DNA from: Longimicrobiales bacterium
GTDB lineage: Bacteria; Gemmatimonadota; Gemmatimonadetes; Longimicrobiales; Gaopeijiaceae
Assembly (NCBI GenBank): GCA_951828585.1
Contig: OX639991.1
Location: 3,566,576 to 3,630,575 of the forward strand
Reading direction: 5' to 3'
DNA: 64,000 bases
This document shows, piece after piece, positions 17,280-42,783 of this stretch. Within the stretch, counting starts at the first letter, position 1. Each line of letters starts with the position of its first letter. The notes beneath the pieces were generated by a model. It did not search any database. It saw only the letters and a program-made list of their open reading frames with translations, and was not told where the DNA came from. Made by a program: the position numbers and the translations under genes.

Positions 17280-17299
17280 CCCGAAGCGCTCCGTCCGGC

Positions 17300-20908: not shown

Positions 20909-20928
20909 CCCGAAGCGCTCCGTCCGGC

Positions 20929-26465: not shown

Positions 26466-27548
26466 ATGAAACACCACTTGGGGATGAGGGCGGGTTTGCT
26501 CCACCGGACGCGATGCCGGACCATCCTGCTGTCTCTCGGTGCTTGCCTGTCCGCCGAGTCTTTCCTGTCGCCGCCCGTTCTGACTGCTCAGGAGCCCGCT
26601 CCGGAGGCGGAGGCGGTCCGCGTGACCATGCAGGTACGCGACGCGGAGAGCAATGTGCCGTTGCTGGGCGCGCTGATCGAGCTGACCGGCCTGTCCAGCC
26701 GGTACGTCACCGGGATGGACGGTAGGGTCACCCTCGAAATCCCGGCGGGGCACTACACCTTTACCGCGCACAAGGGCGGATACGCGACGCTGCGGGGTGA
26801 TTTCGGGGTGATCGGCGCGAGTGAACTCACCGTCGTGATGCATCGATTGGGCGACGTGGACACGAGCATTCCGGAAAGGCTGCTCGTGCGGGTGGCGGAG
26901 TTCGGATCGGGGCGCCTGATCGAAGGGGCGGTCGTCTCGTTGCCGGGAGGGAGGGGCGGGCTCACCGATGGGAGCGGATGGGTCGAGTTCAGGGACCTGG
27001 ACGGGACCGTGGCCGAGGTCACCGTGCAGATGATCGGCTACAGGAAGCGCACCGAGCCGGTGACGCTGCACGAGGGGCGCACAACGGTCGTGGAGTTGGC
27101 GATGTCGATCGACGCCGTGGTCCTGTCACCCATCGCGGTGGAGGTGCGCTCGGGGTTCCTGGAGAGGCATGGGGTGTACTGGAGGATGGATCACGGCCAT
27201 GCGATGCATGTCTTCGACAGCCAGGATCTTATCGACCGCGGTGGCGTTCCCTACCTGGCCGAAGCTTTTCGAAGGATACCGAACCTGCATGTGTTCGGGG
27301 AAACGATCTTTGGGCGCCGGGGGTGCACGATTGCAATATACTGGGACGGGGTACCCCAGCAATTCGGTGACCACATTGTAAGGCCCATCCCGGGGGGACT
27401 AAACCACCTTGCGCCGGAAGAAATCGAATTGATCGAGGTCTATACGGGCATGCGGACGCCCTCCCGCTTCAGTCGGTGGCCGGGGGACCTAAACCACTGC
27501 GGCGCCATCGCCGTCTGGTCGAAGCGTCTCGCGGATCGAAGCCGTTAG
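26466..27548 (+). CDS. Plug-array protein A: two carboxypeptidase-regulatory-like domains plus TonB-plug-like domain
   Basis: 360 residues from ATG 26466, set by an AGGAGG ribosome binding site. Signal peptide to about residue 36 (ending VLTAQ). Domain 1 (about 45-130): VRVTMQVRDAESNVPLLGALIELTG...YTFTAHKGGYATL. A short linker DVDTSIPERL leads to domain 2 (about 138-225): LVRVAEFGSGRLIEGAVVSLPGG...GYRKRTEPVTLHEGRTTV. The C-terminal part resembles a TonB-receptor plug: PYLAEAFRRIPNLHVFG, GCTIAIYWDG, EIELIEVYTGMRTPSRF, CGAIAVWSKR. There is no beta-barrel. First of seven paralogs in the window; the next begins 6 bases after its stop. Barrel-less plug proteins of this sort have no assigned function. 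Most similar to the broken member at 41138. Confidence 0.8.
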   Translation: MKHHLGMRAGLLHRTRCRTILLSLGACLSAESFLSPPVLTAQEPAPEAEAVRVTMQVRDAESNVPLLGALIELTGLSSRYVTGMDGRVTLEIPAGHYTFTAHKGGYATLRGDFGVIGASELTVVMHRLGDVDTSIPERLLVRVAEFGSGRLIEGAVVSLPGGRGGLTDGSGWVEFRDLDGTVAEVTVQMIGYRKRTEPVTLHEGRTTVVELAMSIDAVVLSPIAVEVRSGFLERHGVYWRMDHGHAMHVFDSQDLIDRGGVPYLAEAFRRIPNLHVFGETIFGRRGCTIAIYWDGVPQQFGDHIVRPIPGGLNHLAPEEIELIEVYTGMRTPSRFSRWPGDLNHCGAIAVWSKRLADRSR

Positions 27549-27554
27549 CAGCCG

Positions 27555-28595
27555 GTGCGCTGCCGGCCGTCGATACCGCACCGGGGGACGACACTGTTCG
27601 CCCTGGCCCTCGCCTTCCTTCCGTCCGCCCCCGTCCTGACAGCCCAGGACCCCGACCTGCCCAGGGCGACGTTCCGCGTCACCGCCCACCTCCGCGACGC
27701 GGATACCGACGCCCCCCTGATGGGCGCGCTGATCGAGTTGTCGGGCCACTCGCGCCGGTACATCACCGCGATGAACGGCCGGGTGTCCTTCGAGGTCCCG
27801 GCGGATCGATACACCCTAACCGCGCAGAAGGGCGGGTACGCGACGCTGCGGGTTGACTTCCGGGTGCAGCGCGCGGGCGAGCTGGCCATTCTGATGCACC
27901 AACTCGGCGACCTGGACACGAGCATTCCCGAGAGGCTGCTGGTCAAGGTCACGGAATCCGGGTCGGGGCGCGTGATCGAGGGCGCGGCCGTTTCGCTCCC
28001 CGGAGGCCAGGCCCGGATGACCGACGCGCGGGGCTGGGTCGAGTTTGCGGGCCTGACCGGGACGGTTGCCGAGGTCACCGTGCAGAGCCTGGGCTACGAG
28101 ACTCACAGCCAACCCATCTCCCTGCAAGAAGGGCGCACGACGGTCATCGAGGTGGCGATGGCGATCGACGCAGTGGTCCTGCGGCCCATCGAGGTGAAGG
28201 CTCAGTCCCCGTTCCTGGAGAGGCAGGGAGTGTACTGGAGAATCGATCGGGGCTGGCCGGACAGGCTCCTGACGCGGGCGGAACTCGTGGAGCGAGCCGA
28301 TCCGCGTCTGGCGGATGCATTCCGGAACCTCTTTCCCGGGATTCGGCCGGACTACCAGGGGCACCTCACCTTCCTCGTGAACCACCTCGGCTGCCGAATA
28401 CCGGTCTACATGGATGGGCAGCCCCTGGGGTCGGACGTCAGGGGCTTGAATATTGACGATATCGGGCCGGAGGAACTGGAACTGGCCGAGTTCTACGAGC
28501 CGGGCCGGATCCCCGCCCGATTCGGAGGCGTGAGCAAATGCGGCCTCGTCCTGCTCTGGTCCGGCCGCCGGGCCGGGCGCGAAGGCCCTCGATGA
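27555..28595 (+). CDS. Plug-array protein B
   Basis: 346 residues starting at GTG 27555, only 6 bases after protein A, so translationally coupled to it. Same plan: signal peptide (ALALAFLPSAPVLTAQ), two Ig-like carboxypeptidase-regulatory domains joined by DLDTSIPERLLVKV, then the plug-like module (RLADAFRNLFPGIRPDY, GCRIPVYMDGQPL, IGPEELELAEFYEPGRIPARF, KCGLVLLWSGRR). The two C-terminal cysteines found in every member are present. Its linker and plug are closer to protein D (37841), which shares the WPDRLLTRAELVERADPRLADAF block, than to A. Confidence 0.8.
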   Translation: MRCRPSIPHRGTTLFALALAFLPSAPVLTAQDPDLPRATFRVTAHLRDADTDAPLMGALIELSGHSRRYITAMNGRVSFEVPADRYTLTAQKGGYATLRVDFRVQRAGELAILMHQLGDLDTSIPERLLVKVTESGSGRVIEGAAVSLPGGQARMTDARGWVEFAGLTGTVAEVTVQSLGYETHSQPISLQEGRTTVIEVAMAIDAVVLRPIEVKAQSPFLERQGVYWRIDRGWPDRLLTRAELVERADPRLADAFRNLFPGIRPDYQGHLTFLVNHLGCRIPVYMDGQPLGSDVRGLNIDDIGPEELELAEFYEPGRIPARFGGVSKCGLVLLWSGRRAGREGPR

Positions 28596-28661
28596 TCGGG
28601 TTGACGTGGGCCGCCTTCCGGCATGCGCCGCAGCCATGCCGCTGGGAGTGAGACTCTACTC

Positions 28662-30059
28662 CTACCCTGTCGGAGCGCGCGGGGTGCGCTTTTCGGCCTC
28701 ATCGAGCCCGCCGTCCAACCGGTGAATCCAATCCCGGGGCCCGATCTGCCGAAGTGGCGTGGGCAAGTCGAGGGAAGGAGGCGCTCGGCGCATGTCCGTT
28801 CCCACGTTCCCCAACTCGAGGCCCGTTGCTTCAACCCAGTCGAAGAATCCGCGGTTTCCGGTGGTTTCTCCGGCGGGCCACGTCACGAGGGTCACAGAGG
28901 TCGCGTCAGCCGACAAGACGGTGCCGGTAAGATCCAGTTGCATCAACTCCGTCGATCCGGCCGTTACGGTCAAGACTCCACCTTCAATGGTCACCGAAAC
29001 TTCAGTGAGGTCGCCGACATCCGCGATGGCGTCCGATTGTCCGTAGAAGCCGTCGTCGTAGGCCCAGAATGGTCCCGACTCGTCAAATATGAAGAATCGA
29101 TAATCCGTGTCACCCAGCCCAAAGCTGTTGCCATCCGCCCCGATCTGAATCATGTAAGCTGAAAACCGCTCGTGGTCCGCGCCGACCACCAGCCCCGCCC
29201 AGGCATTTGTCGTCGCGTTCCCCAGGGCCGCCGTGACTTCCCATCCAGTGGCAGAAAGCTGGTGGGAGGCAAAGCCCAGAAACCCGGATGCGGTATTCTC
29301 CAACCAGAACATTCCGTCCTCGACCCGTGCCGCCGAGTTGTCAGCTAGCGTCCAGTTCCCCAGGCTCTCTTCGGACTCGAAGTCGTCCCGCAGAAGGCGT
29401 TGACGTTCCACGATCAACACGCCGAAGGTCTGCGAGAAGCTGAGCCCGCCGGGATCGGTTGCGGTAACCGTGCCCGTTGCTGTCCCCGCATTGACGGCTG
29501 TCATGATCAGGGTTTCGTCGGCGACAGTTCCCGTCACGACACTCGGGTCCGAGAATTCGACGCGGTAGGCGAGTTCCTGCGCATCAGGGTCGACGAAGTA
29601 CTCGGAGAGAAAGATCGCGTGCGAACCGCCTGTGGGAAGACGTACATCGAGCATCGTCCGACCCAGCTCCGGTGGCCGATTGGGGACCACGACTTCGAAG
29701 CGCACCTCGCCCGTCAAACTGTCTGGATCGGTGGCGGTGACCGTGATCGTTGCGCTGCCCGGAGAATTGGCCTGGAGCCTCACCCGATCTCCCGAGATGC
29801 TCGCGCCCGCCACTTCGCGGCTGGACGACTCGGCCGTCAAACGGACTGCCTCCATTTCCGGGTCCTCGAAGCAGGGCGTGACAACTTCGGTTTCTCCTAC
29901 GTGGAGTGTCTGCTGCGGTATCGAGCCGCATGCGACCGGAGGCTGCGGATCACCACAGGCGGCGAGCCAGGCGACGGCCGCAAGCGCGAGGGGCCCGTGA
30001 AGCCTGCGAGCGCGACATTCCACAGGTGAAACGGCATGGCGGGAGTGGATGGGACGCAT
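28662..30059 (-). CDS. Lipoprotein with Ig/cadherin-like domains and a C-terminal jelly-roll
   Basis: 465 residues from ATG 30059 (GGAG upstream). The lipobox is in AVAWLAACGDP. Two cadherin-like/BIg-type beta domains follow (about 40-220), each with the SATITVTATDPDSLTGEVRFEVVVPNRPPEL and GTATGTVTATDPGGLSFSQTFGVLIV pattern. Then comes a concanavalin-like jelly-roll (LLRDDFESEESLGNWTLADNSAARVEDGMFWLEN...GWEVTAALGN...NAWAGLVVG), which typically binds glycans. Convergent with protein B and transcribed in the same direction as the cytochrome cluster to its right. Likely anchored in the outer membrane; the ligand is unknown. The last 35 residues are charged and may be a frayed tail. Confidence 0.75.
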   Translation of the reverse strand: MRPIHSRHAVSPVECRARRLHGPLALAAVAWLAACGDPQPPVACGSIPQQTLHVGETEVVTPCFEDPEMEAVRLTAESSSREVAGASISGDRVRLQANSPGSATITVTATDPDSLTGEVRFEVVVPNRPPELGRTMLDVRLPTGGSHAIFLSEYFVDPDAQELAYRVEFSDPSVVTGTVADETLIMTAVNAGTATGTVTATDPGGLSFSQTFGVLIVERQRLLRDDFESEESLGNWTLADNSAARVEDGMFWLENTASGFLGFASHQLSATGWEVTAALGNATTNAWAGLVVGADHERFSAYMIQIGADGNSFGLGDTDYRFFIFDESGPFWAYDDGFYGQSDAIADVGDLTEVSVTIEGGVLTVTAGSTELMQLDLTGTVLSADATSVTLVTWPAGETTGNRGFFDWVEATGLELGNVGTDMRRAPPSLDLPTPLRQIGPRDWIHRLDGGLDEAEKRTPRAPTG

Positions 30060-30267
30060 TTGCTGCTCCGGCGGGTGGGATCGGTGGGTGGCCACGGGAT
30101 ACGGAGTCTCGCAAGTTCCTAACCCTAAGGCGGCGCGAGTGGAACATAACGTGAACCGAGTCGTTTCCATGGATGATGGGGAATTGAACTGAAGGTTCCC
30201 CCGCGGTGCGGTCATCCCTCGGACTCGGACGGAAACGGCGGTGAGAATTGGTTGACGCCCCCTGCCA

Positions 30268-30831
30268 TTACCCCTCCCCATTCACCTCACGAAACGCCTC
30301 CGCAAACTCGCCCAGCTTCTTCTCCATCAGCCCCTTCAGCGCCTCCGCCACGCTACCCGCCTCCGCCACCCCCACCTCGCTGGCCCACCAGGTTACCGCC
30401 TCGGACAGGGTGATCTGCGTGTCGCGGATCATCTGGGTGGCCTGCTGGATCCGCACCGACACCGAGTAGCCCACCACCCCCGCCACCCCGCCACCGCACT
30501 CGAAGGTCACCCTCAGTTCGGGTATGCCCGGACTGGCGAGCATCTCCTCCCGGGTCAGCAGCGGCACCTCGGCCGCCTCCAGCGCGGTCACCGCGTCCGT
30601 CCGCATCGACTCGGCCGACACCCCCGCGCCCTCGCAGCCCAGGTTCGTCTCGGCGCGGACGTGCACGCCGGCGAGGCCCTCGAGCGTGTAGCGGTTCCAG
30701 GTCGTGTCTTGGGCCGCCCCCGCGACGGGGAGCGACATCGCCACCACCGAGGCCGCCGCGTACCGCGCCGCCGCCCCGGCTGGAACCCACCCCGCCCGTC
30801 CGGCCCGCCGCTCCTTCACCGGCCACCCCAT
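30268..30831 (-). CDS. Secreted hypothetical protein coupled to the ankyrin gene
   Basis: 187 residues. The ATG overlaps the stop of the ankyrin gene by one base (TGATG), so it is translated by coupling. A signal peptide (ARYAAASVVAMSLPVAGAAQ) precedes a mature part of about 147 residues with two cysteines (NLGCEGAGV, VTFECGGGV) and a helical C-terminus (VAEALKGLMEKKLGEFAEAFREVN). The pattern LxVxAETNLGC...T..VTALxxAxVPLLTxEEMxxSPGxPxLxV recalls small periplasmic proteins with no assigned role. The 208 bases before the next gene (30060-30267) show no gene. Confidence 0.75.
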   Translation of the reverse strand: MGWPVKERRAGRAGWVPAGAAARYAAASVVAMSLPVAGAAQDTTWNRYTLEGLAGVHVRAETNLGCEGAGVSAESMRTDAVTALEAAEVPLLTREEMLASPGIPELRVTFECGGGVAGVVGYSVSVRIQQATQMIRDTQITLSEAVTWWASEVGVAEAGSVAEALKGLMEKKLGEFAEAFREVNGEG

Positions 30832-32789
30832 CAATCGCTCCCGCACGTCCGGCACTGGTGGTTGTTCTTCGACCCGAGCTTCTCCAGGAGCGCGACCGTG
30901 GCAGGGTGCGGCTGGGCGCGCTGTTCGGGACTGTTGGCCAGGTCCGCCGTGGTCTGTCCGCGCCGGCTGATCGCATTCACGTCCGCGCCCCGGCTGACCA
31001 GGAACAGAATCGTGGCGTTGTCGCCCCGCGCGGCCGCGTGATGGATGGCGGTGTAGCCGTCCTTGTCGCGCAGGTTGGGGTCGATGCCGAGTTCGTCGAC
31101 CAGGTAGCGCACCGCGGGCAGCCATCCGTCGGGGACGCTGCGGTGCTGCTGCGCCACCCGTGAGGTGCCGAAGCCGACGCCGGAGGCCGCGTGCAGCGGG
31201 TGGATGGCCGGGCCGCCGTCGGGTACGGGGGGCAGCCCCGACGGGTCCTGCCGCTCTTCCTGCTGCTGCTGGGCCGGGACGTTCGCCCCGAAGAAGCGCC
31301 GCGACGGCAGCTTGATCGTCCAGATGTTCGGGTCGGCGCCGTATTCCACCAGAAGACGCATGGCCTCGACGTCGACCGCGTAGGCGGCGCGCCAGAAGGG
31401 CGTGGCCCCGGTGAAGTCGACGCCCATGCGGCCCGCGTTGTACGCCGCGTACCATATGTGCGTGCTGGTCCGCTGGTTGGGATCGGCGCCCGCCTCCAGG
31501 AGCAGCCTCATGAACTCGAGGTAGTGCGTCTCCTGCTGGCGGAAGGCCTGGGGCTGCGGGTACCAGGTCCTGAGCGACCACTCGATGTTGAGGGTGGCGA
31601 AGAGCGGGGCCGCGTTGTCGTCGCTGACCTGGTTGGGGTCGGCGCCGCGCTCCAGCAGGTCGCGGGCCAGGTCGTAGTTGCCGTTGATGACCGCGACCAG
31701 CATCGGGGGGGACTGGTCGCCGCCGGTGGGCTGGTTGATGTCGGCGCCGGCGTCGGCCAGCAGGGAGGCGGTGGAGCGGTGGCCTTCCCGGGCCGCGTAA
31801 TGCAGCGCGGTGAACCCGCCCTGTTTGCCGATCTGCTCGATCGAGCTGAGGGCTTTGGGGAGGGGCTCGGCGGGGGGCTCCGGGGCCGAATCGGGTGGGG
31901 TGGCAGCCGTATCCGCCGGGGTTGCCGGGGTCGCCGCCGCGGGGGCTGGCCGGGCGGGGGTGGGGGGCTGTGCGGGTGGAATCTGTTGCACCTGCACCTG
32001 AGCGCGCGGCTCCTCTTCCTCCTCCTCCTCCGGCTCCTCCGCCGCGGCCTTTACGCGTCCGCGCTGCCGCTGTTCGGCGCGCCAGGCGACGCTGATGGCC
32101 GGGTAGTCCTTGAGGGCCGTCTGTAGCGCCGGATCGGCACCGGACTCGAGGAGGGCGCTCAGCGCGGCGTCGGCTCCGCGTACCGCCGCGAACATGAGGG
32201 GGGTGCGCTCGGAGAAGGTGTCGCGGGCGTCGACATCGGCGCCGTGGGCGGCCAGCAGGGCCACGACCCCGGCCGCGTCGGCGTCGGCCGCGAAGTGCAT
32301 GGCGGTGACGCCGGTGGAGGTGAAGACATTCGGATCGGCTCCGGCCTCGAGAATCAGCTGTGCGACATCGGTGCTGCCGGAACGACTGGCCATGTGCAGG
32401 GGCGTGTAGCCGCCCAGGCGGGTCGTCGCGCGCGGGGTCGCGCCCGCGTAGAGGAGGATGCGCGCGATCTCGGCGTCGTTGTGGGTGGCGGCCCAGTGGA
32501 GCGCGGTCATGCCGTCGCTCTGGGCGGTGTTCACGTCGGCCCCGTCCCTGAGCAGGGTGCGCACCGCTTCCAGGTCACCCCGCTCGGTGGCATCCGCAAC
32601 CGGGGAATCGGCCGGCCCCACCGCACCGGTGAAGGCCAGCACGAGGATGAGGCTCGCCAGGCCCGCGAACCGGCGGCCGCTCGACCTCCGCCGCTCCGCC
32701 GTCCGCTTGCGTCCTCTCAGGACAGATTCCTGCCAGAATCTGTCATTACGCCTGTCCGCTGATCCGAGACGAGTGCTTTGGGTGGTCAT
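30831..32789 (-). CDS. Exported ankyrin-repeat protein
   Basis: 652 residues from ATG 32789. Charged start, then a hydrophobic segment (FAGLASLILVLAFTGAVG, about 42-60) as a long signal peptide or anchor. Ankyrin repeats run from about 68 to 215 (GDLEAVRTLLRDGADVNTAQSDGMTALHWAA and so on) and again from about 325 to 635, separated by an acidic and Pro/Ala-rich linker (EEPEEEEEEEP...PAQPPTPARPAPAAATPA). It ends with CRTC. The repeats form a binding scaffold. It lies in the minus-strand run cytochrome c - DUF1552 - ankyrin - hypothetical. A 24-bp palindrome (32721-32744) lies inside its first codons, so a downstream start is possible. Confidence 0.88.
   Translation of the reverse strand: MTTQSTRLGSADRRNDRFWQESVLRGRKRTAERRRSSGRRFAGLASLILVLAFTGAVGPADSPVADATERGDLEAVRTLLRDGADVNTAQSDGMTALHWAATHNDAEIARILLYAGATPRATTRLGGYTPLHMASRSGSTDVAQLILEAGADPNVFTSTGVTAMHFAADADAAGVVALLAAHGADVDARDTFSERTPLMFAAVRGADAALSALLESGADPALQTALKDYPAISVAWRAEQRQRGRVKAAAEEPEEEEEEEPRAQVQVQQIPPAQPPTPARPAPAAATPATPADTAATPPDSAPEPPAEPLPKALSSIEQIGKQGGFTALHYAAREGHRSTASLLADAGADINQPTGGDQSPPMLVAVINGNYDLARDLLERGADPNQVSDDNAAPLFATLNIEWSLRTWYPQPQAFRQQETHYLEFMRLLLEAGADPNQRTSTHIWYAAYNAGRMGVDFTGATPFWRAAYAVDVEAMRLLVEYGADPNIWTIKLPSRRFFGANVPAQQQQEERQDPSGLPPVPDGGPAIHPLHAASGVGFGTSRVAQQHRSVPDGWLPAVRYLVDELGIDPNLRDKDGYTAIHHAAARGDNATILFLVSRGADVNAISRRGQTTADLANSPEQRAQPHPATVALLEKLGSKNNHQCRTCGSD
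32721..32744. repeat. Palindrome, copy 1 (inside the ankyrin 5' region)
   Basis: GACAGATTC - CTGCCA - GAATCTGTC: perfect 9-base arms with a 6-base spacer. The same 22 bases recur 84 bases further right (32805). It lies in the first 25 codons of the ankyrin frame as annotated. Operator or REP-like repeat are both possible. Confidence 0.7.
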
Positions 32790-32802
32790 TCCAGCCTCCT
32801 TT

Positions 32803-32842
32803 GTGACAGATTCCTGCCAGAATCTGACCGCGAATCTGTCAC
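32803..32842. promoter_or_regulatory. Palindrome, copy 2, with a third arm, between the DUF1552 and ankyrin genes
   Basis: GACAGATTC-CTGCCA-GAATCTGAC (32805-32828) repeats copy 1 with one mismatch; a further GAATCTGTCAC (32832-32842) pairs perfectly with GTGACAGATTC (32803-32813). It sits 14 bases upstream of the ankyrin start and fills most of the 70-base gap, so it could regulate the ankyrin gene or terminate/attenuate the DUF1552 transcript. Confidence 0.6.
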
Positions 32843-32859
32843 AGGTTGCCCGTCGGCTC

Positions 32860-34248
32860 CTAGATTTCGTAGTGCCCCGTGCTGTTCCCGAACTTCTCGA
32901 TGTCGTCGGCGCCGAGCTTGTGGAGCAGGCTCAGCATGACGTTGGCCATGGGCGTTCCCGGCTGGGCGCGGATGTGCTGCTCGCCCTCCAGGATTCCGCT
33001 CGCGCCGCCGACCAGGAAGAGCGGGCAGCGGATGTGGTTGTGCAGGTTGCTGTCGCCCATCGCCGAACCGTACATGACCATGGTCTTGTCGAGGAGCGTC
33101 CCGTCGCCCTCGGTCGATTGCTGCAACTTCTCGAGAAAGTACGGCAGCATCGAAATGTGGTACTCGTTGATGCGGCCGAACTGCTGTACGCGCTCGGGTC
33201 GGCCGCCGTGGTGCGAGGCCGAGTGGAAGGGCGTTTCGACACCCGACTCGGGGTATACGCGGGGCGACGCATCGCGGCCCAGCTTCAGCGAAAAGACCCG
33301 GGTCGTGTCCGACTGGAAGGCGAGCACCTGCAGGTCGAACATCAGCTTGACGTGGTCCTCGAAGGAGTCGGGCACACCCACCGGCGCTTCGGGGATCTGC
33401 CGCTCCTCGCCGCTCACGTTCTGGGCCTCGATGCGCTGAATGCGCTGCTCCAGTTCGCGGATGTTCTGCGCGTACTGGTCCAGGCGGTGCACGTCGGCGG
33501 GATCCAGTTGGCGCCGCATGGACGACATCTCGCCCATCACCCAGTCCAGGATGCTGCGGTTGGTCACCAGGCGCTCGGCGCGCTGCTCGGCAGTTCCCCC
33601 GGCCCCGAAGAGCTGCTCGAAGACGGCCCGCGGGTCGCGGATCATGGGAAGCGGCTCGCTGGGCGAGGCCCAGCTGATGGTGTCGGTGTAGACGCAGGCG
33701 TAGCCGTAGGCGCAGCCCCCGGCCTGGTCGACGTTCTCGATGGAGAGCTGCATGGAGGGGATCGGCGTGTCGTTGCCGAAGCGCTGCACGTAAAGCTGGT
33801 CGAAGGAGGTGCCGACGCGGACGTCGGAGCCCTCCGTCTGCTTGGGGTGCGCCTGCGTGAGGAACACCGCGCTGGTTCGGAAGTGGTCTCCGCCGATCTC
33901 GGCGGGCGAGTAGGCGTCGGCCATGCGGGCGTCGGTGTCGCTGACGATCGTCAGGTACTTCCGGAAGGACTCGAGCGGTTTGAGGCTGCTGGGGGACAGG
34001 TCGAAGTTCTTCCCGGTCTCCGCGGGGGACCAGAGGTTCTGGCTGGCGCCCCAGTCATTGCAGCCGGCGGCCCCGTGCACCTGCTCGATGCAGACGAGGC
34101 GGGTGCGGTCGGCGGCCTTGCCCGCGGTTGTGGACGCCCACAGGCGGCCCGCGGGGATCATGGCGTCGAGGAGGGGCAGGCTGATGGCGGCCCCGGCTCC
34201 CTTGAGCATGGCGCGCCGCGAGATGTGCTTGCCGCTGAGGTATTTCAT
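32860..34248 (-). CDS. DUF1552 protein, Tat-exported
   Basis: 462 residues. A twin-arginine signal is visible (ISRRAMLKGAGAAISLPLLDAM). The body matches DUF1552, a member of the alkaline-phosphatase/sulfatase-like group common in Planctomycetes, Acidobacteria and Gemmatimonadota: IEQVHGAAGCNDWGAS, GGDHFRTSAVFLT, GTSFDQLYVQRFG, AHRLDQYAQNIRELEQRI-type helices, TRVFSLKLGRDASPRVYPESGV, FHSASHHGG, YGSAMGDSNLHNH. It almost always follows a DUF1592-type cytochrome c gene, as here (70 bases downstream of it). The pair is thought to act together in the periplasm; the substrate is unknown. Complete. Confidence 0.93.
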   Translation of the reverse strand: MKYLSGKHISRRAMLKGAGAAISLPLLDAMIPAGRLWASTTAGKAADRTRLVCIEQVHGAAGCNDWGASQNLWSPAETGKNFDLSPSSLKPLESFRKYLTIVSDTDARMADAYSPAEIGGDHFRTSAVFLTQAHPKQTEGSDVRVGTSFDQLYVQRFGNDTPIPSMQLSIENVDQAGGCAYGYACVYTDTISWASPSEPLPMIRDPRAVFEQLFGAGGTAEQRAERLVTNRSILDWVMGEMSSMRRQLDPADVHRLDQYAQNIRELEQRIQRIEAQNVSGEERQIPEAPVGVPDSFEDHVKLMFDLQVLAFQSDTTRVFSLKLGRDASPRVYPESGVETPFHSASHHGGRPERVQQFGRINEYHISMLPYFLEKLQQSTEGDGTLLDKTMVMYGSAMGDSNLHNHIRCPLFLVGGASGILEGEQHIRAQPGTPMANVMLSLLHKLGADDIEKFGNSTGHYEI

Positions 34249-34318
34249 TCGAATCAGTCCTCTTGGGTTGGGTGACTCGGGGGAATTCTGTTCACGGGCT
34301 GCTTTTCATTGGACACCG

Positions 34319-36796
34319 TCAGTTGCCTTCTCGTTGGGACTCGTGGCCGGGATCCTCCTCGGCCACCGGCGTGCCGACCCGCGCCATGCGGAAGGCGGGG
34401 CTGCCGACCACCCCCAGGACGAAGGACGACATGCGGTAGTCGTTCGTGGCCCCGTCGCGGATGATGGCCCGGATGGAGGGCATGTCGTAGTACTCGACGC
34501 GGCGGCCGAGGGCGAAGGCCATGAGGTTCTCGGTGAAGGTGCTGAGCACGACATCCGGGATGTCGAGAAGAGCGTTGCGCAGGTCGGCGGGGCTGGTGAG
34601 TTCCTTGCCGTTGTACATCATCCCGACCGGGTCGACCGGGTTGCCCTCGTCGCGGATCCGCCAGGACCCCGTCACGTCGAAGTTCTCGAGCGCCAGCCCC
34701 AGCGGGTCCATCACGTTGTGGCAGGAGCGGCACTGCGGGTTCTTGCTGTGCTCCTCCAGGCGTTCGCGCACGGTCAGGAAGCGCCCCTCCTCGGCGGCCG
34801 CGGTCTCCTCGAAGGCGGGGATGTCGGGGGGCGGGGGAGGGGGCGGCGTGCCGAGCAGCACCTCGAGGACCCACTTGCCGCGCAGCACGGGGGAGGTGCG
34901 GTCGGGGTGGGAGGTGAGGGTGAGGATGCTGCCGTGGCCGAGAAGGCCGCGGCGGTGGTCGCTGCGGTAGTCGACCTTCTGGAAGGCGGGCCCGGTGACC
35001 CCGGTGATTCCGTAGTGCCGGGCCAGGCGCTCGTTGACGAAGGTGTAGTCGGCCGTGAGCATCTCGAGGACGGAGCGGTCCTCCTTCACCAGGTGGTGGA
35101 AGAAGAGCTCGGTCTCGCGGTGCATCGCGTCGGCCAGCGTCTGGTCGAAGTAGGGGTAGGTGAGCGCGTCGGGGTGGATCTTCTCAAGGTCCTGCAGGCG
35201 CAGCCACTGGGCGGCGAAGCGGCTGGCGAGGGCCTCGGCGCGCGAGTCGGCCAGGAGGCGGCGCGCCTGCCGCTCGAGTTCGGCGGGGTCGGAGAGGGCG
35301 CCGGACCGGGCCAGCTTCAGGAGTTCGTCATCGGGGGGCGCGCCCCAGAGGAAGAACGACAGCCGTGACGCGAGGTCCGGGCCGGCGATCTCGTAGATGC
35401 CGTCGGGTCCCGTGTCGGCGGGCGTCCGTTCGACGCGGAAGACGAAGTGGGGGCTGGCCAGGATCGCCTGCAGGGCGGTGCGGATGCCCTTCTCGAAGCC
35501 GCCGTCGGCCGCGCCCATCTCGAAGAAGGGGAGGAGGCCGTCGATGTCGCTGTCCGTGGCGGGGCGGCGGTAGGCGCGGGTCGCGACCCGTTCGATGATC
35601 CGGCGGGCGCAGGGCAGGGCCTCTTCGGGCAGAGTCGGGCGGCAGGTAAAGACGCTGCGGCGCGCGGGGGTGTCCGAGACGCCGGTCACGTCGAAGGGGC
35701 CGAGCACGGTGAGCCGCTGCAGGTGCTGCTGGGTGGTGACGCCGTACCCGATCCCGATCTGTCCGTCGGCGAGGGTGTGGTCGATGGGGCGGATGAGGTC
35801 GTCGACCACGCCCTCGAACTGGCGGATGAAGGCGGCCGAAACGCGCTTCTGCCCGGCCGTCACGTAGATCGAGTCGGTGCGGATGTTCAGCCCGGTGGGC
35901 TCGGATTCCGACATCCAGCGGTCGATGGTGAGGAGCGCCACCCGCTCGCCGTCGATCGAGACCTCGATCTGCTCGGTTCCGAAGGTGCGCCCGAAGACCT
36001 CGCCCTCCACGGCGTTGTACGGCATGATGTGGAAGACGTACTTGCCGTCGGCGGGGAAGTTGTGCAGCACCGAGAGCCCGCCGCGCGTGCCGATCGGGGC
36101 GCCCTCCACCTGGTCCTTCTGCGACGCCACCCTGGGAATGCGGTATTCGGTGGAGGAGATCTCCGCCTCGGGGTCGCCCAGCGCCAGCCTGCTGACCTGT
36201 CCCGCCGCGCGCAGATACCCCTCCATGACCGTCGCCGAGGGCATCTGCACGTCGGCGATGTTGTCGAAGTTGGCGCTCTTGGTGTCGAGGGGGAGATAGG
36301 TCGCCACATCGATATCGAGACCGAGCAGGTCCTTCACCGCGGCGGCGTACTCGGCCCGGTTGAGTCGCTGGAAGGTCCTCCGCCCCGGGTTCGGGTCGCT
36401 GGCCGCGATGCGGTCCATGGTCTCTTCGAGCTCCGTGGCCATCTCGGCCAGAACCTCGGGCTCGGGCCGCGGCATCCCCTGGGGCGGCATCATCCCCGCG
36501 CGGAGCTTGCGGATCATCTTCTCGATCGTGGGGCGCCGCTGCGCGGCATCGGCGATGTCGAATCCCTCGAGCACGAGGTTCTGGATGCGGCGGCGCTCGT
36601 TGTGGCAGCGCACGCAGTACTGCGCGACGATTTCGTTCGGGCCCGGGCTGGCGAAATCCCCCGTCTCGATTGACGTTTGGGGGACCTGCCACGGAACCGC
36701 CGGGAGCGGGGCGGGGTATGAGCCCGGGGTTTCCCGCCCGGCGATGCCGATACCGAACGCACCGGCCACGAGGAACACTATGGCGTATCTGCTCAT
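34319..36796 (-). CDS. Planctomycete-type cytochrome c with DUF1587/1592/1588/1585 domains
   Basis: 825 residues from ATG 36796. After a signal segment (YAIVFLVAGAFGIGIAG) comes a c-type heme motif CVRCH (about residue 60) in the IVAQYCVRCHNERRR context. The domain series follows: DUF1587 (FQRLNRAEYAAAVKDLLGLDIDVATYLPLDTKSANFDN), DUF1595 (ARRIIERVATRAYRRPATDSDIDGLL), DUF1592 (GIRTALQAILASPHFVFRVE...LASRLSFFLWGAPPDDELL), DUF1588 (YRSDHRRGLLGHGSILTLTSHPDRTSPVLRGKWVLEVLLG...NPQCRSCHNVMDPLGLALENFD, with a second CxxCH) and DUF1585 at the end. It is a periplasmic multi-domain protein of unknown activity, partner of DUF1552. Divergent from plug protein C, with a gap of 36 bases or less. Confidence 0.93.
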   Translation of the reverse strand: MSRYAIVFLVAGAFGIGIAGRETPGSYPAPLPAVPWQVPQTSIETGDFASPGPNEIVAQYCVRCHNERRRIQNLVLEGFDIADAAQRRPTIEKMIRKLRAGMMPPQGMPRPEPEVLAEMATELEETMDRIAASDPNPGRRTFQRLNRAEYAAAVKDLLGLDIDVATYLPLDTKSANFDNIADVQMPSATVMEGYLRAAGQVSRLALGDPEAEISSTEYRIPRVASQKDQVEGAPIGTRGGLSVLHNFPADGKYVFHIMPYNAVEGEVFGRTFGTEQIEVSIDGERVALLTIDRWMSESEPTGLNIRTDSIYVTAGQKRVSAAFIRQFEGVVDDLIRPIDHTLADGQIGIGYGVTTQQHLQRLTVLGPFDVTGVSDTPARRSVFTCRPTLPEEALPCARRIIERVATRAYRRPATDSDIDGLLPFFEMGAADGGFEKGIRTALQAILASPHFVFRVERTPADTGPDGIYEIAGPDLASRLSFFLWGAPPDDELLKLARSGALSDPAELERQARRLLADSRAEALASRFAAQWLRLQDLEKIHPDALTYPYFDQTLADAMHRETELFFHHLVKEDRSVLEMLTADYTFVNERLARHYGITGVTGPAFQKVDYRSDHRRGLLGHGSILTLTSHPDRTSPVLRGKWVLEVLLGTPPPPPPPDIPAFEETAAAEEGRFLTVRERLEEHSKNPQCRSCHNVMDPLGLALENFDVTGSWRIRDEGNPVDPVGMMYNGKELTSPADLRNALLDIPDVVLSTFTENLMAFALGRRVEYYDMPSIRAIIRDGATNDYRMSSFVLGVVGSPAFRMARVGTPVAEEDPGHESQREGN

Positions 36797-36832
36797 CCTG
36801 ACGCTTTCATGATGAAGGTACGGGCTAAAGAT

Positions 36833-37825
36833 ATGCGACCGGCGCCCTGTTTCGCTACTGTCGCGACCCTCTTCTGCATGCAAATCGGTATTCCGGGGCT
36901 GGTGGAGCCGGCGGCGGCCCACGCTGGCGCGGGCCAGGACCACCCTGACGAAGTCGTCCGCCTGACCGCCCGGGTCATCGACGGCCGGAGCGAGGACGGG
37001 TTGCTGGGGGCGGTGATCGAGCTGTCCGGGCTGGTCGACCGCTACGTGACGGGCGTGGACGGCCGCGTCGTGATGGAGGTCCCGAAGGGGAGCTACGGGC
37101 TCACGGTGCGCAGGGGCCGGTACGAGGTGCTGTCGGGAAATCTGGACGTGCTCAGGCCGGGAGAGTTCACGCTGCCGCTGGATCGGGTCCGGACGATGGA
37201 CCCGAACGCGACCGCCACCCTGGAGGTCCGGGTCGTGGACCATGTGACCGGGGGTGGAGTCGGGGGGGCGCGGGTATCGGTTCTGGAGGGTCCGAGCGGC
37301 ATGGCCGACGAATGGGGGTACATCGAGTTCGATGCGCTCGACATGCTGGTTGCCGAGATCTCCGTGGAGATGAGCGGCTATGCGACGCGCACCGCGCCCG
37401 TGGCGCTGCATCCGTTTCGCACGGCGGCCGTGCGGGTGGCGATGACGGTCGCGGAGGCCGCGCCGGAACCGATCGAGGTCGTGGTGCGCACCCGCGCCAT
37501 GGACGTACTCGACTCCAACTACCTGGGGCGCCGGGGGGAGCGGGCGGCTCTGTTTACACGCCGAATGCTCAAGGAACTTGCGGTCGACAAGCTCTCCGAC
37601 GCGTTGGCGACGCTGGACGGTTTTCGAGTGGAACGCCCCAGATCCGACGAAGCGCGGCTGGTAGCGCCCCGGAATTGCACCCTTGGCGTGCGGGTGGACG
37701 GCATACGCAGAAGGTACGATCGGCTGAATATCGACGTTGTCCCGGTCAGCCAGGTGGAGAGGGTGGAGGTCCACGTGCTTCGGCAGCGTGGCTGCGGCGT
37801 CGTCCATATCCAGACCCGGCGTTGA
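36833..37825 (+). CDS. Plug-array protein C (shorter, divergent member)
   Basis: 330 residues from ATG 36833; ATG 36809 would add eight charged residues before the signal peptide (FATVATLFCMQIGIPGLVEPAAAHA) and leave only 12 bases to the divergent cytochrome gene. Two carboxypeptidase-regulatory-like domains (RLTARVIDGRSEDGLLGAVIELSG, LEVRVVDHVTGGGVGGARVSV) are linked by a variant of the usual linker (DPNATATLEV). The plug part is shortened: KLSDALATLDGFRVE, NCTLGVRVDGIRR, VSQVERVEVHVLRQRGCGVVHIQTRR. Both conserved cysteines are kept. The most divergent of the intact paralogs; it lies 15 bases before protein D. Confidence 0.78.
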   Translation: MRPAPCFATVATLFCMQIGIPGLVEPAAAHAGAGQDHPDEVVRLTARVIDGRSEDGLLGAVIELSGLVDRYVTGVDGRVVMEVPKGSYGLTVRRGRYEVLSGNLDVLRPGEFTLPLDRVRTMDPNATATLEVRVVDHVTGGGVGGARVSVLEGPSGMADEWGYIEFDALDMLVAEISVEMSGYATRTAPVALHPFRTAAVRVAMTVAEAAPEPIEVVVRTRAMDVLDSNYLGRRGERAALFTRRMLKELAVDKLSDALATLDGFRVERPRSDEARLVAPRNCTLGVRVDGIRRRYDRLNIDVVPVSQVERVEVHVLRQRGCGVVHIQTRR

Positions 37826-37840
37826 GGAGGGCGGTCTATC

Positions 37841-38881
37841 ATGGAGAAACGCCAGCGGTTTGCGCTCGCAGTCTGCCTCTCCGCCGGTTCTCTTGCATCC
37901 GCCTCCGGACTCGCGGCCCAGGAGCCTGCCCGGGAGGCCGAGATGGTCCGCATTACCGCCCACGTTCGCGACGCGGACGCCGACGGAGCGCTGCTGGGCG
38001 CGTTGATCGAGTTGTCGGGCCAAGCCGGGAGGTACGTCACCGGCATGAACGGGCAGACCTCCTTCGATATCCCCGTGGGCACCTACACCTTTTCCGTGCA
38101 CAAGGGCGGATACGCGACGGTGCGGGGTGATTTCCGGGCGGTCTACAACGGCGACCTCACCGTCACGATGCATGAACTGGGGGATGTGGACACGAGCATA
38201 CCCGAGAGGCTGCTGGTACGGGTTGCGGAGTTCGGATCGGGGCGGCTGGTCGAGGGAGTGGCCGTCTCGGTCACCGGGGGACGGGCGCGGATGACGGACG
38301 GGCAGGGGTGGCTCGAGTTCACGGACCTGAGCGGGCCGGTCGCCGAGGTCACCGTGAGAGGCTTCGGCTATCAGACCCGGACCGTGCCCATTCCGCTGCT
38401 CGAGGGACGCACGACGGTTGTCGAGGTGGCGATGGCGATCGACGCGGTAGTCCTGGCGCCAATCGAAGTGATGGCCGAATCCCGATTCCTGGAAAAGCAG
38501 GGCGTGTACTGGAGGATCGACCGGGGCTGGCCGGACAAGCTCCTGACGAGGGAGGAACTGGTGGAGCGGGCGGAGCCGCGCCTGGCGGATGCGTTCCGCG
38601 GTCTGTCGGGGGTTCGGGTAGATTACTGGGGGCCCTTCGCGTTCCTCATGACTCACACCGGTTGTCCGATACCGGTGTTCCTCGATGGGCGGGCACTGGG
38701 GTCGAATGTGGCAGAGTTGAATTTCGTCGTGGGGCTGAACATTGATGATATTCCGGCGGAAGAGGTGGAGTTGGCCGAGTTTTACGAGCCAGGCCGGGTG
38801 CCCGCGCGATTCGTAATGCCGTCGACGGACAACTGCGGCGCCGTCCTGCTCTGGTCCCGCCTGCGGGCCGGGAAGGGGTAG
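37841..38881 (+). CDS. Plug-array protein D
   Basis: 346 residues; GAGGAGG just upstream of ATG 37841. Signal peptide (LAVCLSAGSLASASGLAAQ), domain 1 (VRITAHVRDADADGALLGALIELSGQAGRYVTG..YTFSVHKGGYATV), linker DVDTSIPERL, domain 2 (LVRVAEFGSGRLVEGVAVSVTGG...GYQTRTVPIPLLEGRTTVVEVAMAIDAVV), and the plug-like end (LADAFRGLSGVRVDYWG, GCPIPVFLDGRAL, IPAEEVELAEFYEPGRVPARF, NCGAVLLWSRLR). The conserved phrase QGVYWRIDRGWPDKLLTREELVERAEPRLADAF is shared with protein B. Separated from C by 15 bases and from E by 55. Confidence 0.8.
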   Translation: MEKRQRFALAVCLSAGSLASASGLAAQEPAREAEMVRITAHVRDADADGALLGALIELSGQAGRYVTGMNGQTSFDIPVGTYTFSVHKGGYATVRGDFRAVYNGDLTVTMHELGDVDTSIPERLLVRVAEFGSGRLVEGVAVSVTGGRARMTDGQGWLEFTDLSGPVAEVTVRGFGYQTRTVPIPLLEGRTTVVEVAMAIDAVVLAPIEVMAESRFLEKQGVYWRIDRGWPDKLLTREELVERAEPRLADAFRGLSGVRVDYWGPFAFLMTHTGCPIPVFLDGRALGSNVAELNFVVGLNIDDIPAEEVELAEFYEPGRVPARFVMPSTDNCGAVLLWSRLRAGKG

Positions 38882-38936
38882 GGGACGAGTGGCGGGATTA
38901 CGGCGCGGTGATCGCACGCGGGACAGGTGGTCGCGA

Positions 38937-39989
38937 ATGATGACGGACTGCTCAGCTCGGCGGACGGAAGCGGGATGGGGCCGCTACCCGACCGCCCTGC
39001 TCGTGTGCGCGGCTTTTGCGTCCCCCGGTCTGTTCATGTCCGATTCCGTTCTGCGTGCCCAGGAGCCCGATCAGGACACAGAGTCGGTCCGCATGACCGT
39101 GCGCCTCCTTGAAGCGGAGACCAAAGGGGTACTGAGGGGCGGGTTGATCGAGCTGTCGGGCCTGCCCAGGCGGTACGTCACCGGCACGGACGGGCGGGTC
39201 ACCTTCGAAGTCCCTCCGGGATACTACACGCTGACCGCGCGCAAGGGCGGGTACGCGACGCTGCGAGGCGACTTCCGGGTGATGCTCTCCGGGGAGCTGA
39301 CCTTCCTGATGCATGAAGTGGGCGACGTGGACACGAGCATTCCCGGGAGGCTGCTGGTGAGGGTCGCGGAATTCGGCTCGGGCCGTCTGATCGAAGGGGC
39401 GTCCGTCTCGCTGCCGCAAGGCCGGGCGCGGATGACGGATGGACAAGGGTGGGTGGAGTTCAGGGATGTAAGCGGGCCGGTCGCCGAGGTCACCGTGGGG
39501 GCGCTTGGGTATGAGAAGCGTACCGAGCCCGTCCCGCTGCACGAGGGGCGCACGACGGTGCTGGAGGTGGCGATGTCGGTCGATGCCGTGATCCTCGCGC
39601 CCCTCGAGGTGACGGCTCAGTCCCGGTACCTGGAAAAGCAGGGCGTGTACTGGAGGATGGATCGCAATCGGGTGAACAAGGTCTTGACCCGCGAGGAAAT
39701 GGTGGAGCGGGGCGTCCCTTATCTGTCGGAAGCACTCCGGATTCGTCCGGGGGTCAGGGTGGAGCACCGGGAGGGCGAAGCCGTCCTCCTGGGTCGCGGA
39801 CGTTGTGAGATGAAGGTGTGGATGGATGGGTGGCCCCTGGCGTTCTGGGGGCTGAACATTGACGATATTGACGCGGAGGACCTGGCATTGGCCGAAGTGT
39901 TCTGGGCCGAGCGGACACCCGCGCGTTTCGATGTGGGAGGTTGCGGCGCCGTCGTATTCTGGTCGAAGCGCCGGGCCGGGGAAGGGTAG
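38937..39989 (+). CDS. Plug-array protein E
   Basis: 350 residues from ATG 38937 (GTG 38889 is also in frame, but the signal peptide fits the ATG). A leader GGGACAGGTGG precedes it, similar to the one before protein F. Domains: VRMTVRLLEAETKGVLRGGLIELSGLPRRYVTGTDG, linker DVDTSIPGRL, LVRVAEFGSGRLIEGASVSLPQG, then the plug-like end (PYLSEALRIRPGVRVEHREGEAVLLG, RCEMKVWMDGWPL, IDAEDLALAEVFWAERTPARF, GCGAVVFWSKRRAGEG). Complete. Confidence 0.8.
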   Translation: MMTDCSARRTEAGWGRYPTALLVCAAFASPGLFMSDSVLRAQEPDQDTESVRMTVRLLEAETKGVLRGGLIELSGLPRRYVTGTDGRVTFEVPPGYYTLTARKGGYATLRGDFRVMLSGELTFLMHEVGDVDTSIPGRLLVRVAEFGSGRLIEGASVSLPQGRARMTDGQGWVEFRDVSGPVAEVTVGALGYEKRTEPVPLHEGRTTVLEVAMSVDAVILAPLEVTAQSRYLEKQGVYWRMDRNRVNKVLTREEMVERGVPYLSEALRIRPGVRVEHREGEAVLLGRGRCEMKVWMDGWPLAFWGLNIDDIDAEDLALAEVFWAERTPARFDVGGCGAVVFWSKRRAGEG

Positions 39990-40051
39990 CGGATGGGCAA
40001 CAAGGACTACGAAACCGGGTGCACAGGACCCGGGACAGGAGGTGGAAAACG

Positions 40052-41101
40052 ATGACACCCCACACAATGCAGCTCGCTGGAGCGCCCCGTGGGGCTTGGT
40101 CCCGGGCCGCTCTGCTTGGCTTCGCGGCTTCCCTGGCCGTGGGTGCATCCGCACCCCACACGGTTCTGCGCGCCCAGGAGCCTACGACGGTCCGCATGAC
40201 CGTACAGATGCGCGACGCGCAGACCCAGGCGCCGTTGATGGGCGCCCTGATTCGGGTCCCGGGACAGGCCAGGCCGTACATCACCGGAGTGGACGGGCAG
40301 GTTTCCTTCGAGGTGCCGGCGGGGACATGGGTCATCACGGCACGCAAGGGTGGATACTTCACGGCGACCGAGGAACTCGAGGTGCGTGGCCCGGATGAGA
40401 TAACGATGCTGCTGAGACGGCTCGAGGAAGTGGAAGCCGGCCTGCCCGCGACACTGTTGGTCAGGGTTCGCGAGGCGGGGACGGGGCGATCGATCGAGGG
40501 GGCGGGGGTCTCGCTGGTCGGTGGCGAGACTCGAATCACCGACAAGCGCGGCAACGTCCAGTTCGCGACGCTGTCGGGGGAAGCGCGGCTCAACGTGGAG
40601 ATGATCGGCTATGCGAATCGTTCGGAGCCGGTATCGGTCCACTCCGACGGCACGACGGTCGTCGACCTGGCCATGGCGGTGGACGCGGTGGTCCTTGAGC
40701 CGATCAAGGTCGAAGTGCGCTCACGCCACCTGCTGGTCAACGGCGTATACCGGAGGATCGACAGCGGTCAGGTGATGCGGCTGCTCACGCGTGAAGATCT
40801 CGAGAAGTTCCCCGTGAGTTTCCTGTCGGATGCCTTCTCGAGTGTCCCGGGCGTCCAGGTAGACCGGGCAAGCGTGGGCGATACCAAGCTCATGGGGCCG
40901 GCCCGAGGGGACCCCAACGGCTGTGAGTTGAAGGTGTATGTGGACGGAATGCCCACGGATATGAACATCGACTCCTTCTCGCCAGAAATGGTGGAGTTGG
41001 CCGAGATCTACTGGGGGCTGCGCACGCCGATCCAGTACCGCGGGGTGAACGCGAGCAACTGCGGTGTGGTGCTGCTGTGGACGCGGCGGGGAGGGGGGTA
41101 G
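40052..41101 (+). CDS. Plug-array protein F
   Basis: 349 residues; strong AGGAGGTG ribosome binding site places the start at ATG 40052. Signal peptide (AALLGFAASLAVGASAPHTVLRAQ), domain 1 (VRMTVQMRDAQTQAPLMGALIRVPGQARPYITGVDGQ), an altered linker (EEVEAGLPATL), domain 2 (LVRVREAGTGRSIEGAGVSLVGGETRITDKRGNVQF), and the plug-like end (FLSDAFSSVPGVQVDR, GCELKVYVDGMPT, SPEMVELAEIYWGLRTPIQYRG, NCGVVLLWTRR). Its C-terminal part is the closest to true TonB-receptor plugs. The operator at 41113 lies between it and member G. Confidence 0.8.
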   Translation: MTPHTMQLAGAPRGAWSRAALLGFAASLAVGASAPHTVLRAQEPTTVRMTVQMRDAQTQAPLMGALIRVPGQARPYITGVDGQVSFEVPAGTWVITARKGGYFTATEELEVRGPDEITMLLRRLEEVEAGLPATLLVRVREAGTGRSIEGAGVSLVGGETRITDKRGNVQFATLSGEARLNVEMIGYANRSEPVSVHSDGTTVVDLAMAVDAVVLEPIKVEVRSRHLLVNGVYRRIDSGQVMRLLTREDLEKFPVSFLSDAFSSVPGVQVDRASVGDTKLMGPARGDPNGCELKVYVDGMPTDMNIDSFSPEMVELAEIYWGLRTPIQYRGVNASNCGVVLLWTRRGGG

Positions 41102-41112
41102 GTGATCCGTAA

Positions 41113-41151
41113 TGTACACTATAGATGACATAATGTAATGTCGTCTTTACA
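41113..41151. promoter_or_regulatory. Four-half-site operator, copy 2, overlapping the start of plug-array member G
   Basis: TGTAC (41113-41117), TGACA (41126-41130), TGTAA (41134-41138), TTACA (41147-41151), spaced 8, 3 and 8 bases. The right pair is part of a 22-base palindrome with arms AATGTAA/TTACATT. The ATG at 41138 lies inside the site, so binding should repress member G. Confidence 0.65.
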
Positions 41152-42239
41152 TTGCAGGCAGCGTGGGCGAGGAGGACCGGGACGGGGGGCCGGAGGGCTC
41201 AGCAGGACGGGATGGCGGACCGTCCTGCTGCCGCTGGTGGCTTCCCCGTGCCTCGCGACATTCGTGTCCGGCCCCGTCCTGTGGGCCCAGGAGCCGGATC
41301 GGGAGGTGGAGGCGGTCCCCGTGACAGTACAGGTGAGCGACGCGGAGAGCAGTGTGCCGTTGCTGGGCGCGCTGATCGAGTTGACCGGTCAGTCCAGGCG
41401 GTACGTCACGGGCATGGACGGGAAGGTCACCTTCGAGCTCCAGCCAGGGCACTACACCTTTACCGTGCACAAGGGCGGGTACGCGACGCTGCGCGGGGAC
41501 TTCGGGGTTGTCGGTGCGAGCGACCTGGCGGTCGTGATGCACGGATTGGGCGATGTGGACGCGAGCATTCCGGAAAGGCTGCTGGTGCGGGTCGCGGAGT
41601 TCGGAACGGGGCGCCTGATCGAAGGGGCGGCCATTTCGCTCCCCGGGGGGCAGGGGGGGCTCACCGACGGGAGCGGCTGGGTCGAGTTCAGGGATGTGGA
41701 CGGAGCGGTCGCCGAGGTCACCGTGCAGATGCTGGGCTACCGGAAACGCACCGAGCCGGTAACGCTGCACGAGGGGCGCACGACGGTCGTGGAGGTGGCG
41801 ATGTCGATCGATGCCGTGGTTCTCGCGCCGATCGAGGTAGAGGCGCGCTCGGGATTCCTGGAAGCGCAGGGTGTGTACTGGAGGATGGACCACGGTCGGA
41901 CGATGCATGTTTTTTGACGGCAAGGATCTCATCGAGCGCGGCGGTCGACCCTACCTTACCGAAGCTTTCAGGAAGATCCCGAACCTGCATGTCTACGGAG
42001 GAGGTCTGATCCTGGGGCGCCGGCAGTGCGAGCTTGCGGTGTACTGGGACGGGATGCCCTTGCGATTTGCGACCGTTCCGTGGTGGCAACTTTACGAAAT
42101 CCCGCCAGAGGAAATCGAACTGGTCGAGGTCTACACCGGCCTGCGGACGCCATTGCGCTTCAGACGCTGGCCGGGGGACATCAACGACTGCGGCGCCATC
42201 GCCTTCTGGTCGCGGCGGCGCGCGGATCGGAGCCGTTAG
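41138..42239 (+). pseudogene. Plug-array member G, frameshifted in a T6 run
   Basis: The first frame (41138-41917) encodes the signal peptide and both Ig-like domains (VTVQVSDAESSVPLLGALIELTGQSRRYVTG, then LVRVAEFGTGRLIEGAAISLPGG) and stops right after GVYWRMDHGRTMHVF. The second frame continues with FDGKDLIERGGRPYLTEAFRKIPNLHVYGGG, CELAVYWDGMPL, IELVEVYTGLRTPLRF and DCGAIAFWSRRRADRSR to 42239. The run TTTTTT at 41910-41915 is the switch: with five Ts the frame is continuous and matches protein A. One extra T may be a mutation, a sequencing error, or a length-variable tract. Confidence 0.82.
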
Positions 42240-42297: not shown

Positions 42298-42783
42298 ATG
42301 GAGGCAGCCTTGAGCGGGCTCGAAGCGGGAACCAACGCGCCGGATTTCTCCCTCATGCGGGTGCTGGGCGAAGACCCGGTCACCCTGTCGGAACACCGGG
42401 GCGAGCCGGTGGTGCTGATGTTCGTGCCGCTGGCGTTCAGCGGCGTTTGCACGAAGGAGTTCTGCCACGTCGCGGAGAATTGGGAGGTGTGGGGCTCGCT
42501 GGGGGCGAAGGTCTACGGGATCAGCATCGATTCGCCGTTCGTTAATGTGAAGTGGGCCGAGGAGATGGGAGTGCCGTTCCCGATCCTCTCCGACTTCAAC
42601 AAGACTGCGGTTGCGGCGTACGGCGTGCTGCGGGAGGAGTTGGCGGGGTTGCGGGGTATCGCCAACCGGTCCGTATTCGTCGTCGATGCGGAGGGCCGGG
42701 TCAGCTACGCCTGGGTCAGCGAAGACCCGCACGTGCTGCCCCCCTTCGACGAGGTCGTGGACGCGGTTCGCGCGCTGCGGTAG
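42298..42783 (+). CDS. Peroxiredoxin (AhpC/TSA, AhpE-like)
   Basis: 161 residues from ATG 42298; a GGAGG directly inside it (42300-42304) points to TTG 42310 as the likelier start (157 residues, SGLEAGTNAPDFSL). The thioredoxin fold carries the peroxidatic motif PLAFSGVCTKEFC, with Cys in VCT; a second Cys four residues on (EFC) may act as the resolving residue. Further conserved parts: GISIDSPFVNVKWAEEMGVPFPILSDFN and RSVFVVDAEGRVSYAWV. It reduces peroxides in the cytoplasm at the expense of a thiol donor. Complete, with no partner reductase nearby. Confidence 0.93.
   Translation: MEAALSGLEAGTNAPDFSLMRVLGEDPVTLSEHRGEPVVLMFVPLAFSGVCTKEFCHVAENWEVWGSLGAKVYGISIDSPFVNVKWAEEMGVPFPILSDFNKTAVAAYGVLREELAGLRGIANRSVFVVDAEGRVSYAWVSEDPHVLPPFDEVVDAVRALR

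Follow-up and report, generated by a model that had tools for sequence, protein, structure and literature searches.

A plug is familiar as the part that moves within a barrel. The Plug of the type IX secretion translocon is a protein of its own that associates with a barrel in the outer membrane, and the barrel-less proteins described here resemble it in being separate; there was no sign that they enter a barrel. The likeness to the TonB protein (PF03544, TonB_C) comes from relatives of family f5, in which TonB_C stands behind the plug, whereas the seven copies at the present locus are without TonB_C, no ExbB/ExbD anchor was identified, and TonB itself is without a plug. With the SusC/RagA-type transporter, for example BT1763 (PMC7782687), the proteins share an Ig domain of the NTE type (PF13715) and the plug; the TonB box that SusC has directly after the NTE has its counterpart in a TonB-box-like motif. 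In that transporter a 22-stranded outer-membrane beta-barrel follows the plug, while the free-plug proteins have no barrel, carry one or two NTE-type domains and have an invariant cysteine pair in the plug. Partner SusD genes lie beside some members of the family, as they do beside SusC, but not beside the copies at this locus. No role has yet been assigned to the NTE of SusC (PMC7782687). The STN domains of transducers such as FecA and FoxA (PMC11658791) are similar in being a periplasmic extra domain ahead of the TonB box, but their fold differs from that of the NTE (PMC7782687) and they belong to a complete receptor. In the neighbour tally, a sigma/anti-sigma pair was not a common neighbour of free-plug family members.

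A literature search found no published description of barrel-less plug proteins, and nothing relevant on a Gemmatimonadota plug domain or on a plug with BlaR1/M56; since most subscription journals lay outside this search, this absence is weak evidence of novelty. What seems new here, on that weak evidence, is the barrel-less arrangement of SusC-type parts that are themselves known.

The locus was analysed within a window of 64,000 nt, the whole stretch of DNA considered, from the forward strand of a Longimicrobiales bacterium (Gemmatimonadota; Gaopeijiaceae; GCA_951828585.1, OX639991.1, positions 3,566,576-3,630,575). An earlier note on this DNA had described a tandem array of seven paralogs on one plan. 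All seven starts proved to be those of real open reading frames with the plan described, all on the plus strand, but the seventh is broken by a frameshift, leaving six intact genes (Table 1). Short-gap runs on one strand were likewise found; they form two groups rather than one array, with two genes at 26466-28595 and five at 36833-42239, the latter separated by gaps of 15-62 bp. The 8.2 kb between them holds genes in opposite orientation, including ankyrin-type, DUF1552-like and DUF1592-like cytochrome-type proteins as judged from sequence and syntenic relatives. In the seventh copy the frame stops in a run of T, the shift being placed near 41914 (within 41900-41920). Since its counterparts in three other MAGs (L036, L037 and L038) are intact, the break was put down either to mutation at this locus or to an error in the assembly.

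Table 1. Coordinates of the free-plug genes and associated features in the window.
Feature	Position	Strand	Remarks
Free-plug protein 1 (P0001)	26466..27548	+	Signal peptide, two CarboxypepD_reg domains, TonB-box-like LSPIAVEV, plug; Pfam Plug 24.0 bits, over cut-off
Free-plug protein 2 (P0002)	27555..28595	+	GTG start, 6 bp after P0001; no Pfam Plug match
Free-plug protein 3 (P0003)	36833..37825	+	Most divergent copy; without the usual W and P..F near the end
Free-plug protein 4 (P0004)	37841..38881	+	Plug modelled alone
Free-plug protein 5 (P0005)	38937..39989	+	Complete mature protein modelled
TonB-box-like motif of P0005, LAPLEVTAQS	39594..39623	+	Disordered in model
Free-plug protein 6 (P0006)	40052..41101	+	Top Pfam Plug score of the set, 31.8 bits
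Free-plug gene 7, N-terminal portion before the frameshift	41138..41917	+	
Free-plug gene 7, plug portion, shifted frame	41871..42239	+	
AhpC/TSA-like peroxiredoxin gene, downstream neighbour	42298..42783	+	Named from sequence; neighbour in all syntenic relatives examined

The peroxiredoxin-like gene follows a free plug by 57-112 bp in the window and in all syntenic relatives examined (L115, L116, L120, L036 and L038). Between it and an AI-2E-type gene, relatives carry an intact one-domain CarboxypepD-type gene, of which a remnant was found at 42895-43166 of the window (two tblastn pieces, with 84% and 68% identity to L038:6637-7443).

In the free-plug proteins an export signal is followed by a pair of Ig domains of the SusC NTE type, then by a TonB-box-like motif and a TonB plug, after which comes a stop; the signal peptides of the window copies were assigned by eye. 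The two carboxypeptidase-regulatory-like (Ig-like) domains were borne out by Pfam matches (PF13620/PF13715) in all copies, P0003 giving one weak match. The DTSIPERL-type linker claimed for the set is present in five of the seven, but P0003 has DPNATATL and P0006 has EAGLPATL. Pfam Plug matches exceeded the cut-off in just two copies, P0001 and P0006; P0003, P0005 and the C-terminal frame of the seventh copy gave weak matches, and P0002 and P0004 none. In the window copies, and in those intact relatives that carry no extra domain, the frame closes 0-36 aa past the plug and no barrel stands behind it. The plug-like end without a barrel seen by the earlier note was thus upheld, by structure and profile for the plug and by the early stop for the missing barrel. 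No named NCBIfam family was matched over cut-off. Some intact relatives carry a further domain of about 133 aa behind the plug. An elongated form was also observed, a 918-aa protein (L074, 7124-9880 on the minus strand; also L040 and L041) with the free-plug architecture at its C terminus, preceded by more CarboxypepD_reg domains and a stretch that gave no match to Pfam.

The assignment of the C-terminal part as a TonB plug was made from predicted structures of single members. In the model of mature P0005, the N-domains match transthyretin-like domains and the SusC NTE (9hfj), the latter at Z 8.6 and rmsd 2.0 over 80 residues, and residues 190-305 align with CirA at Z 7.3 and rmsd 2.9 over 111 residues. 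A whole-protein Foldseek search against the PDB gave no transporter in the top 50, the matches being of pilin/CnaB type and others to the N-domains. This was deemed to result from the two N-domains filling the match list, and the plug was therefore modelled by itself, using P0004, which has no Pfam Plug match (25-row alignment, pLDDT 84.7, pTM 0.81). All 50 of the best PDB matches of this model were TonB-dependent transporters, BtuB, ChuA, PfeA, SusC, RagA and FhuA among them, with TM-scores by query of 0.47-0.60. In addition, the free-plug profile aligned with a barrel-plug profile of the same genomes at an hhalign probability of 96.5% (E 8e-10). On these models the C-terminal part is a TonB plug, and the possibility that it was unrelated to plug domains was not borne out.

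The plug differs from its barrel-bound counterparts in a pair of cysteines. Among 86 distinct free plugs, comprising the window copies and relatives, one Cys was found in all 86 and the other in 85, and the Cys count was two in 79 plugs and four in 7, never odd. Cys was absent at these two sites in barrel plugs. Together with the Cys pair, a Y, a P and a W are invariant beyond the barrel-plug pattern, and the sequence around the barrel-plug IRG motif is altered in most free plugs. The isolated FepA plug has been reported to be unfolded (PMC11658791), from which it was deduced that a free plug needs a scaffold other than the barrel. This scaffold is probably a disulfide between the two Cys, which would stand in for the barrel.

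Directly after the NTE-type domain stands the motif L.P[IL].V.[VA], in which the L was conserved in 63 of 74, the P in 66 of 75 and the V in 70 of 75 sequences. The segment has pLDDT below 50 and is disordered in both models (P0005 and the P0004 plug), so the fold gives no reason for its being conserved. The SusC TonB box stands at the same place (VDEVVV in BT1763) and is unstructured in solution (PMC7782687). A proline occupies the SusC acidic position in the motif, which counts against reading it as a site for TonB.

The family profile matched 156 of 200 Gemmatimonadota genomes at E <= 1e-10, the titles of the named relatives being those of Gemmatimonadetes, Gemmatimonadota and Longimicrobiales MAGs, so that the same architecture, when sought in other genomes, was found phylum-wide. 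The host genome has at least 14 free plugs in total, further members lying at C1:1681440, 2904141, 2168030-2175044, 4109493-4115150 and 2034461. In a tree of 85 plugs over 143 columns, built by a quick method, 71 free plugs and 14 barrel plugs fell on opposite sides of one branch (SH-aLRT 100). The suspicion that all copies might be truncated receptors was rejected on this split and on the invariance of the Cys pair; judged from sequence comparison, the window proteins are members of a Gemmatimonadota-wide family. A TonB-dependent receptor was also observed in the window at 5388-7393, lying in two frames (barrel match 5388-6536, plug match 7037-7393; open frames of 533 and 360 aa), and is probably frameshifted.

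Links to TonB and to SusCD transporters were found in relatives. The extension of about 133 aa was matched to TonB_C in L094, L099, L103, L128 and L131, all five over cut-off, and, among the matches listed, full-length ones reaching into TonB_C came from 39 genomes, all of family f5. The window copies gave no Pfam match to TonB_C and none is fused in the window's lineage, which counts against a TonB-related function. In favour of one, TonB-like proteins are encoded in the host genome, a TonB C-terminal domain lying for example at C1:2077848-2078072. Of the 113 genes that stand no more than two places from a family member, 8 are SusD and 9 carry Plug, and beyond SusC/SusD the tally gave no single common partner. 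Across 31 genomes, with orthologous operons counted repeatedly, 12 of 91 members have a SusD on their own strand no further than 7 kb away, against 0.66 expected. Tight SusC-SusD-plug operons were found in the host genome (L077) and in L107, L109 and L127, and the order plug:TonB_C-SusC-SusD in L094, L128, L165, L171 and L178. In L179 (6580-13791, plus strand) two fused free plugs flank one transporter pair, as plug:TonB_C-SusC-SusD-plug:TonB_C, and in L181 SusC-SusD is followed by two fused (plug:TonB_C) genes. A check of neighbours, as the earlier note had proposed, thus brought out SusC/SusD operons in a subset of relatives. A SusCD neighbour is absent for all seven window copies and for most family members, which again weighs against action on such transporters. 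The proposal that free plugs bind a partner barrel, the TonB box or a ligand may therefore hold in its barrel or TonB direction, to which the conserved box-like motif and the TonB_C fusions and SusCD operons of relatives point.

Since some relatives of the barrel-less plugs adjoin SusC/SusD genes or are fused to TonB_C, the proteins may assist or regulate the uptake of nutrients in a way not described before. We hypothesized that the window proteins are detached plugs, likely TonB-binding, that act in trans with SusCD-type transporters, and we put the probability of this reading at roughly 0.4. The proteins would be exported, most likely to the periplasm, as a stand-alone copy of the periplasm-facing half of a SusC-type transporter, with its NTE Ig domains, TonB box and plug. 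A disulfide of the Cys pair would let the plug fold without a surrounding barrel, the exposed box would bind TonB at its C-terminal domain, and the whole would work in trans with outer-membrane transporters, chiefly SusCD pairs, as an adaptor or competitor setting which transporter TonB engages. The broader proposal, that such soluble plugs (NTE, TonB box and disulfide-locked plug, in one family fused to TonB_C) constitute a phylum-wide undescribed class controlling TonB-powered SusCD transport in trans, is made more tentatively. Detached plugs would add a possible layer of control to TonB-driven uptake, whether as periplasmic competitor or adaptor. A barrel-free family that keeps a TonB-box-like motif and adds a Cys pair would also show how a plug stands alone, and the proteins would offer a soluble system for studying NTE, box and plug together.

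The strongest rival, somewhat less probable, is exaptation: the disulfide-locked plug, having given up TonB, would now serve as a soluble domain that binds a ligand or another protein and sits on an Ig-like stalk, either in the periplasm or secreted. Such a module would be consistent with the family-specific invariant residues, with the many members lacking a transporter neighbour, and with a lipoprotein-like relative whose box is degenerate (L101), which likewise counts against the detached-plug reading. Differing ligands would also suit sets of paralogues such as the window copies, whose pairwise identity is 33-79% over about 330 aa; given this identity and the conserved counterparts in other species, their likeness is beyond chance. 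Loss of TonB use is, however, harder to reconcile with a box-like motif conserved though disordered, with the existence of TonB_C fusions, and with SusCD operons in several branches. It was considered unlikely that the protein instead inserts from the periplasmic side into a partner transporter's barrel, replacing or doubling the plug there. The plug fold, the SusC genes adjoining some members and a few host-genome barrel matches without a detected plug would agree with this, but those SusC genes carry their own plug, the surroundings of the IRG motif have changed in most free plugs, and only about six plug-less barrel matches, several of them weak, were counted in the host genome against its free plugs. 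This count left no surplus barrels to pair with them.

That the genes are decaying receptor fragments, or fast-changing surface antigens without conserved function, is very improbable. The frameshift in the seventh copy and the strong differences between copies could be read in this way, but the other six frames are intact, free and barrel plugs are fully separated in the tree, and the same Cys pair is kept across the phylum. Furthermore, best-pair dN/dS against other MAGs lay at 0.18-0.26 for five copies (1, 2, 4, 6 and, over its N-terminal part, 7); copy 3 gave 0.38, and copy 5, for which no clear orthologue was seen, 0.49. Values mostly near 0.2 were taken to indicate purifying selection rather than antigenic drift, and the antigen-like diversification that had been suggested was rejected on this ground; single-copy relatives, moreover, occur through the phylum. 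The other suggestion, a substrate-specific set, is neither favoured nor disfavoured by the results. Between the DUF1592-like and peroxiredoxin-like genes, one free plug was found in L115 and L116 (same genus) and in L120 (another genus of the family), and the same slot holds five in the window and five to six in L036, L113 and L114. In these last three, six of the seven copies have best matches at 69-86% identity.

Two minor observations concern the assembled sequence. Near-identical copies of an insertion-sequence-like gene pair lie at 16464-17587 and 20093-21216 of the window. The same receptor was matched at both ends of G000:C1 (4931-7171 and 4466264-4468504) with equal scores and a constant offset, from which it was deduced that this circular-chromosome contig probably overlaps itself by about 11 kb.
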